Source: Balneolales bacterium
GTDB taxonomy: Bacteria; Bacteroidota; Rhodothermia; Balneolales; Natronogracilivirgulaceae
Assembly (NCBI GenBank): GCA_007128855.1
Contig: SKWQ01000014.1
Coordinates: forward strand, 1-48,255
Direction: 5' to 3'
DNA length: 48,255 bases
Both the position numbers and the translations under genes were made by a program. Below, piece by piece: positions 46,939 to 48,255 of this stretch (position 1 is the stretch's first letter; each line of letters opens with the position of its first letter). The notes beneath the pieces were generated by a model. That model was given only the letters and a program-made list of their open reading frames with translations, was not told the origin of the DNA and did not search any database.

Positions 46939-47499
46939 TTATTTGCTTTTATGAACACATCGCTGCAATTCCTGCATAATTCTGGTCTTGAGCGTTCTCG
47001 TCTTGGCATAGGAAAAATTGAACTTTTCAGATATTTCAATAAGGTTGACGGAACTTGATGAAAAGAATGTCATGATAAAGCTTCTATTCGAATCTGAGAG
47101 TTGTTGAAGGCATTTCTTCAGCAGTTTTTGTCTCTCTTCATCAATAAGGTTTTGGAGTTGCTGGGCAGGTTCCGGGAGGATGTTTTCTGAAAAAGAGGGA
47201 TCCATGTCCGATCTTTGTTCAATTTTTTTAAATCTCAGATATTCGTTTCTGGAAGCTGTAAGAAAATACTTGAAAATGGATTTCCTGTCGGAGATCCGGT
47301 CATTCCGGATCATTTCAAATACATCTGAAAAGGCCTGATAGGCACATTCCTCTGCTATGCTCTCCGGAGCTCCCATCCGTATGCGTAAATATATGATGAC
47401 TCTTTTCATCAAGTCTGATGACAGGTCATCCACCGCTGCCCTGTCATCGCGCAGGATGGCGTCAATCAAGCCGGAATAATCAGAGGTAATAGTTGACAA
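46939..47499 (-). CDS. Divergent sigma-70 (ECF-like) family protein
   Basis: 186 aa; AEECAYQAFSDVFEMI region-2-like, LTASRNEYLRFKKIEQ, C-terminal HTH LIEISEKFNFSYAKTRTLKTRIMQELQRCV. Confidence 0.7.
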   Translation of the reverse strand: MSTITSDYSGLIDAILRDDRAAVDDLSSDLMKRVIIYLRIRMGAPESIAEECAYQAFSDVFEMIRNDRISDRKSIFKYFLTASRNEYLRFKKIEQRSDMDPSFSENILPEPAQQLQNLIDEERQKLLKKCLQQLSDSNRSFIMTFFSSSSVNLIEISEKFNFSYAKTRTLKTRIMQELQRCVHKSK

Positions 47500-47865
47500 G
47501 ACGCTGTTATTACTTTTGTTATATCGTTTTTGTAAATCATTTTACAAAATGTGCAGATGTGCCAATTTATCCAAAGTTACTTTCTAATTTCAAATTTTTC
47601 GGATAATCTCTTGAAAAAATCGAGAAACAAATGATTTTTTCGTTGCCACATAACATTTTTCTGCATTATATTTCAATTAATTTTTTATAATAATACAAAT
47701 CGTTTTCAAACAGGTTTACCAGATTTAAAAAAATGCGAAATTTTTTGTAACAAATGATGTATTTATTACTCCTAGTTATGAAGCAGAAAAATGTGTCCTG
47801 CACATTATTGAATCTAAACAACAAAACAAAGCTCAACATAAAGCTCAATTAATCGAGGATTAACC

Positions 47866-48057
47866 ATGAAATCTTTCAAGAACCTCTCCCTTATCGCAGC
47901 CCTTACCTTTACCGTGGTCCTGTCGTCCTGCAGCGGCATCACCGGCGCCAACAACACTGCCGACGAGCTCCTGCTCCAGGCCGAAGACATGAAGGACCAG
48001 CGCGTCCAGGAAAGCGGCGGTGAAAAATTCCGCATGATCCGTGTCCGTCCTGACTGA
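47866..48057 (+). CDS. Small predicted lipoprotein (63 aa), tandem copy 1
   Basis: MKSFKNLSLIAALTFTVVLSSCSGITGANNTADELLLQAEDMKDQRVQESGGEKFRMIRVRPD; LSSC lipobox with Cys22; strongly C-ending codons; GAGG 7 nt upstream of the ATG; sequence repeated 243 bp downstream. Confidence 0.8.
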   Translation: MKSFKNLSLIAALTFTVVLSSCSGITGANNTADELLLQAEDMKDQRVQESGGEKFRMIRVRPD

Positions 48058-48108
48058 CATATGTCATAACCCACTCTCTCAAGTAAGCTCATCTAAATTC
48101 ATACAGCC

Positions 48109-48255
48109 ATGAAATCTTTCAAGAACCTCTCCCTTATCGCAGCCCTTACCTTTACCGTGGTCCTGTCATCCTGCAGCGGCATCACCGGCGCCAACAACAC
48201 TGCCGACGAGCTCCTGCTCCAGGCCGAAGACATGAAGGACCAGCGCGTCCAGGAA
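48109..48255 (+). CDS. Small predicted lipoprotein, tandem copy 2 (truncated by window end)
   Basis: 147 bp identical to 47866-48012 except G47925 -> A48168 (TCG/TCA, both Ser); protein identical over the 49 visible residues. Confidence 0.8.
   Translation, partial: MKSFKNLSLIAALTFTVVLSSCSGITGANNTADELLLQAEDMKDQRVQE

Follow-up and report, generated by a model that had tools for sequence, protein, structure and literature searches.

At one end of the analysed window, which is the whole stretch of DNA studied here and corresponds to an entire contig of its Balneolales bin (G000:C243, 48255 bp), two copies of a small lipoprotein gene lie in tandem on the forward strand. Copy 1 (47866..48057) encodes a protein of 63 aa with a type II signal peptide, an LSSC lipobox with Cys22 (47929-47931), a mature part of 42 aa, and a C-terminal motif, MIRVRPD (48034..48054, forward strand), whose hydrophobic-x-[KR]-P core was recognized in an alignment of 41 family members. 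It is followed on the same strand by a spacer of 51 bp (48058..48108) and by copy 2 (48109..48255), of which the first 49 codons are present before the contig stops. The start-to-start distance is 243 bp, and the 147 bp shared by the copies contain a single mismatch, G to A at 48168, which is synonymous (TCG/TCA serine codon). The two 63-aa ORFs, their spacing, and the single synonymous difference had been described in a first-pass annotation and were all reproduced. Upstream, a promoter-like motif, TGTAAC-N17-CTC (TGTAACAAATGATGTATTTATTACTCCT), is located at 47746..47773 on the forward strand; it is the presumed target of an ECF-like sigma factor, whose gene (46939..47499, 186 aa, TTG start) is oriented divergently on the reverse strand. 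Since the window is an entire contig, copy 2 is truncated where the contig itself stops, and not by the choice of window. This stop lies 87 nt past the sole base telling the copies apart, as would be expected if a de Bruijn graph broke at the repeat. A continuation of the contig was sought in its own bin (287 contigs, 89% complete) and none was found; the genome holds at least two lipoprotein copies.

Orthologous arrays of one to six copies were found across the order Balneolales, including in single-contig genomes. The same lipoprotein gene is present in sister MAGs and related genera, and the named records are Balneolales bacteria, several of them from MAG sets labelled CSSed. The relatives keep the ORF, at 60–81% identity, as well as the lipobox and the tandem layout, so the window pair is probably, as had been proposed, the start of a lipoprotein gene array. 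It had also been anticipated that more copies could follow, and this agrees with the single-contig relatives, G084 with four copies 232 bp apart and G038 with three nucleotide-identical copies 239 bp apart. The 243-bp spacing of the window recurs exactly in G006, where the contig likewise ends within copy 2, and in G013, which, similarly to G012, has two complete copies. The contigs of G001 and G009 end within a lipoprotein copy, G081 has six copies, and in most other arrays adjacent copies are separated by spacers of 41–65 bp. A lipoprotein was recovered at 59 loci, and 27 of these have at least two complete copies, which is a minimum given the assembly breaks; in many loci, only a single copy is assembled. 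The breaks were also counted around the gene of the TPR-CHAT protease, which follows the array (see below). In the 75 loci with a complete protease gene, a contig end lies within 1.2 kb upstream of it in 24 cases and an N gap in 8 more, compared to 3 contig ends and no N gap downstream. This concentration of breaks upstream of the protease gene provides independent evidence of repeats on that side across the order. In total, a contig or scaffold-gap break occurs at the array in about 40% of assemblies, and the array accounts for the frequent breaks at this site in Balneolales assemblies, good ones too. Two contigs deserve separate mention. SLJB01000160.1 (L031 / L092, bin G101) has a single-copy version very close to the window’s genus; the bin itself belongs to another family (f3) with its own CHAT protein, and the contig is probably misbinned. 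At the end of contig G016:C474 (L009 / L048), a weak lipoprotein match, not clearly of the same family, has another sigma gene and a TonB-type receptor in its vicinity.

The 41-member alignment shows that M1, K2, Cys22, and the C-terminal hydrophobic-x-[KR]-P motif are common to the lipoproteins, with C22 invariant and P62 kept in over 90% of the members. The motif occurs in variants such as PIVEKPW, IIRKPKV, IRVRPD, and IIDVRP, and the middle region is variable, acidic, and often Pro/Thr-rich. The window copy has both hallmarks of the family, the lipobox cysteine and the hydrophobic-x-[KR]-P core. In genus g26, several residues extend beyond the motif, which is thus near the terminus and not always terminal; this weakens the idea that a TPR clamp strictly recognizes the C-terminal carboxylate. 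The view that the peptide belongs to no known family was upheld, as none of the 41 members matches Pfam, and the NCBIfam matches of the window copy are only far below cut-off. All 40 strong lipoprotein matches (E < 1e-11; 15 genomes) lie within the array adjoining the CHAT gene; weaker matches (E > 1e-6) are mostly partial and cover the signal peptides of larger proteins. These sequences are defined here as the Balneolales CHAT-linked lipoprotein family, which appears to be new.

The copies are genes under purifying selection and are alike at the protein level. In 35 adjacent copy pairs, a count that leaves out three strongly diverged pairs, 75 synonymous and 16 non-synonymous changes were found in the mature part, giving pN/pS of 0.066. 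The ORF is short, complete, and ends with its own stop codon, and together with this selection it argues against a fragment of a larger gene, which was rejected. In several arrays, the signal peptide of the first copy is divergent and its mature part almost identical to the other copies (53% vs 99% in G085, 72% vs 98% in G081, 74% vs 96% in G116), and the differences of the last copy lean to its 3′ end. Divergence at the outer edges of an array is the usual mark of homogenization by recombination, and we infer that the lipoprotein copies have been homogenized in this way. The first-pass proposal of variable cassettes does not agree with these data, as copies within a genome are homogenized and not diversified. 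Another of its proposals was a structural role like that of Lpp (Braun lipoprotein), with which the small size, type II signal peptide, and tandem copies are shared. However, Lpp has coiled-coil heptads and a C-terminal Lys through which it is cross-linked to peptidoglycan, the C-termini of the Balneolales proteins (RPD, KPW, KPKL, and others) contain no invariant Lys, and the body is modeled without a helix, at low confidence, and is apparently disordered in the middle. The position of the conserved motif near the C-terminus and the linkage to a sigma factor and a CHAT protein differ from Lpp as well, and an Lpp-like identity was rejected.

The surroundings of the array are conserved in relatives in the order: sigma gene on the minus strand; promoter, one to six lipoproteins, and TPR-CHAT on the plus strand; and a convergent gene for a TPR membrane protein. 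The array lies directly upstream of the TPR-CHAT gene in L031, L040, L041, L042, L043, and L045. The sequence upstream of the array is long enough in 54 loci, and 49 of these have a sigma orthologue there on the opposite strand; the convergent anti-sigma-like gene is found downstream in 61 of 65 testable loci. In the window’s family, a cold-shock gene lies beyond the sigma gene, and in some genera, a response regulator follows the convergent gene. The sigma gene is matched by NCBIfam sigma-70/ECF models with E from 1e-5 to 3e-8, below the curated cut-offs. In the window’s own bin, which is 89% complete, searches for CHAT and for a close orthologue of the anti-sigma-like gene gave nothing, so its right-hand part of the locus is reconstructed from relatives. 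That the array belongs to a sigma–CHAT locus, which is widespread and syntenic across the order, is close to certain. That the array is flanked in relatives by a divergent sigma gene and a TPR-CHAT gene is the key fact, which could not have been shown from the window alone, and the earlier reading as a whole is partly supported.

The promoter-like motif is a further conserved element of the locus. The spacing between TGTAAC and CTC is exactly 17 bp in 36 of 55 upstream regions, and any other spacing occurs at most twice; shuffled sequences contain the motif in 0.27 of 53 on average. In the single-contig genomes G084 and G038, the strict long motif is present once per genome, at the array, and the reversed control motif is absent from both. 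Its position suggests that TGTAAC-N17-CTC would be read by the divergent sigma factor. No reverse motif directed towards the sigma gene was found, so autoregulation of the sigma factor is not seen. Two motif sites are present in the window’s own genome, the array and a second site (G000:C164:4699-4726; L179, position 1501) preceding a gene for a PAS-domain protein; the latter is possibly a second sigma target or a chance occurrence.

The protease encoded behind the array in relatives has about 1030–1130 aa and consists of a CHAT domain (Pfam, E 1.8e-49) and TPRs. Residues His899, His903, and Cys956 are kept in 79 of 79 CHAT orthologues. Of 80 proteins, 74 begin with a hydrophobic, signal-like stretch and 79 carry a TM helix at the C-terminus, so the protease is most likely periplasmic and anchored in the inner membrane. 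With a limit of E ≤ 1e-20, the CHAT profile has matches in 108 of the 135 genomes of Balneolales, a count that takes in distant CHAT paralogues of some genomes, and full-length, high-scoring orthologues are confined to Balneolales in class and phylum searches. In 20 regions inspected directly upstream of other CHAT loci of the class or of paralogous groups, no similar lipoprotein was found. The AlphaFold model of the CHAT protein has a pLDDT of 86.9; its best Foldseek match is the TPR-CHAT protein Csx29, followed by the transmembrane anti-sigma DdvA and separase, among others. In profile, its TPRs are similar to those of proteins that bind peptides (LGN/Pins and the receptors NprR and Rap). 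The protease gene itself varies in some genomes. In G090 (L093, 12864-19316) and G052 (L109, 3-6709), TPR-CHAT genes are in tandem, the second without a lipoprotein ahead, which is a duplication of the protease itself; at G058:C8:97965-100625, in an otherwise good assembly, the CHAT orthologue contains 4–8 in-frame stops, depending on the search, and is likely a pseudogene.

The convergent protein has a single TM, with K/R of 3.9 before and 0.3 after it, and its TPRs are predicted to be periplasmic. A Pfam search recognized no sigma-binding or anti-sigma domain in this protein; by its layout, it is likely an anti-sigma factor with a cytoplasmic N-terminus. Possible contact between lipoprotein and protease was approached with an artificial fusion chain, used as a modeling device, in which the G017 lipoprotein, the in-frame spacer, and CHAT were joined and the stops read as Ser/Gly. 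The chain was folded with 53 alignment rows, with the register correct at the motif. Residues 41–50 of the lipoprotein (GDVIRIRPDG), containing the conserved motif, reached a mean pLDDT of 81 and are its sole confident segment; the rest of the lipoprotein stayed at about 26–38, with no helix in the body, and the spacer after the motif at 34–40. In the protease, pLDDT rose slightly in the TPR part and fell by 20 points at CHAT residues 851–860. These shifts may point to both the TPR groove and the vicinity of the active site as the docking place. When the alignment is shallow, conservation of a motif might by itself lift pLDDT even without real binding, and the fusion model is a lead for lipoprotein–CHAT contact, not proof.

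Taken together, the available data can be arranged in the following model. The window pair is very probably the promoter-proximal end of a tandem array within a Balneolales-wide locus, in which a dedicated promoter would let the divergent ECF-like sigma factor drive both the array and the CHAT gene that follows. The lipoprotein, short, largely disordered, and present in many copies, would expose the C-terminal [KR]P motif in the periplasm, where TPR-CHAT may bind it as ligand, regulator, or substrate, and CHAT activity would be set by the supply or location of the lipoprotein. With either the anti-sigma protein or the lipoprotein as its target, the protease might then switch the sigma factor. 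The sequence data directly show the locus architecture, linkage, conservation, selection, catalytic residues, and promoter motif; the detailed topology, the sigma factor reading the promoter, the binding, the proteolysis of either partner, and the signal are the parts of the model that are inferred. The core of this model, that the lipoproteins are ligands or substrates of a periplasmic CHAT protease feeding a sigma/anti-sigma loop, is given a probability of about 0.5. The full version, an order-wide envelope-sensing pathway in which the C-terminal tails of the homogenized array lipoproteins switch a caspase-like protease in the periplasm and this protease signals via its own sigma/anti-sigma pair, is more tentative.

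Other explanations of the locus can be considered. The lipoprotein might be an abundant envelope component, kept in multiple copies for dosage and co-regulated with CHAT as parallel stress effectors that make no contact. Identical tandem copies and an ECF-type promoter suit high dosage, and small lipoproteins are often abundant. However, the linkage is exclusive, one array per genome to one CHAT, only one copy is assembled in many loci, and the C-terminal motif is conserved when the middle varies freely, which looks like recognition and not structure; this explanation is considered unlikely. It can also be assumed that the lipoproteins are precursors from which CHAT cuts and releases a signalling peptide, and that this fragment is recognized by the TPRs of either CHAT or the anti-sigma-like protein. 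Although the repetition of identical precursors and the resemblance of the CHAT TPRs to LGN/Pins, NprR, and Rap receptors would agree with it, this TPR similarity is generic and no conserved cut site is seen besides [KR]-P, a bond that many Arg/Lys-specific proteases cut poorly, which makes this role improbable. The third possibility is that CHAT is a suicide or defence protease held inactive by pseudo-substrate lipoproteins, in a toxin–antitoxin-like or anti-phage system. Separase is held by a pseudo-substrate partner in such a manner. TPR-CHAT and DdvA-type systems have also been tied to defence (PMC10028731, PMC12288465). However, PADLOC gave no defence match except a weak TPR match, and the locus is not a patchy island, so this role is given little weight. 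Finally, a tandem created by assembly from one real copy, suggested by the position of the copies at a contig end and by a bin fragmented into 287 contigs, was rejected as extremely improbable, as one base and the flanks distinguish the copies, single-contig genomes contain three to four of them, and the 243-bp spacing recurs in G006 and G013.

The locus can be compared with several known systems. In type III-E Craspase, Csx30 keeps an ECF sigma factor bound and is cleaved by Csx29, by which the sigma factor is freed (PMC10028731). The likeness includes TPR-CHAT beside a sigma factor, here ECF-like, that has a promoter motif of its own, and Csx29 as the best PDB fold match; the protease substrate in Craspase is a partner protein (PMC10028731), a place that the lipoprotein may take in Balneolales. 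In contrast to Craspase, no Cas7-11-like gene was seen among the ORFs inspected by eye beside the Balneolales locus; the protease, with its signal-like N-terminus and C-terminal TM, is probably not cytoplasmic; and the partner is an exported lipoprotein array, with a separate TM TPR protein as the likely anti-sigma. The DegS–RseA–RpoE pathway is similar to the probable layout in Balneolales, where an ECF-like sigma factor would be combined with a single-pass anti-sigma-like protein whose N-terminus is cytoplasmic and with a membrane-anchored periplasmic protease, which the C-terminal peptide motif of an envelope protein may control. However, trypsin-like and PDZ domains are replaced in the Balneolales protease by caspase-like CHAT and TPR, OMP tails are replaced by the lipoprotein array dedicated to it, and the regulon is apparently very small. 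For DdvS–DdvA of Myxococcus xanthus, the Foldseek match of DdvA to the CHAT protein extends over about 1000 columns, and DdvA also has an ECF partner (PMC12288465). DdvA is, according to its PDB title, itself the transmembrane anti-sigma, whereas in Balneolales, the anti-sigma-like and TPR-CHAT genes are separate and a lipoprotein array is added.

In a literature search, most subscription papers being outside its scope, no description of the array or the locus was found. The parts are of known kinds, ECF circuits and CHAT proteases, but the lipoprotein family and the combination appear to be new. The position of the array, with the sigma gene on one side and the caspase-like protease gene on the other throughout the order, suggests an undescribed cell-envelope signalling system. 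CHAT proteases are relatives of caspases and separase and are common in bacteria. To our knowledge, few of the bacterial ones have a known partner. For the Balneolales protease, the partner family is fixed genetically, the active site is intact, genes for a sigma factor and a likely anti-sigma factor lie close by, and the promoter motif is nearly limited to one site, so its partner, substrate, and regulation are directly testable in cultured Balneolales. If the proposed model is correct, caspase-like proteolysis would be tied to envelope signalling outside CRISPR.
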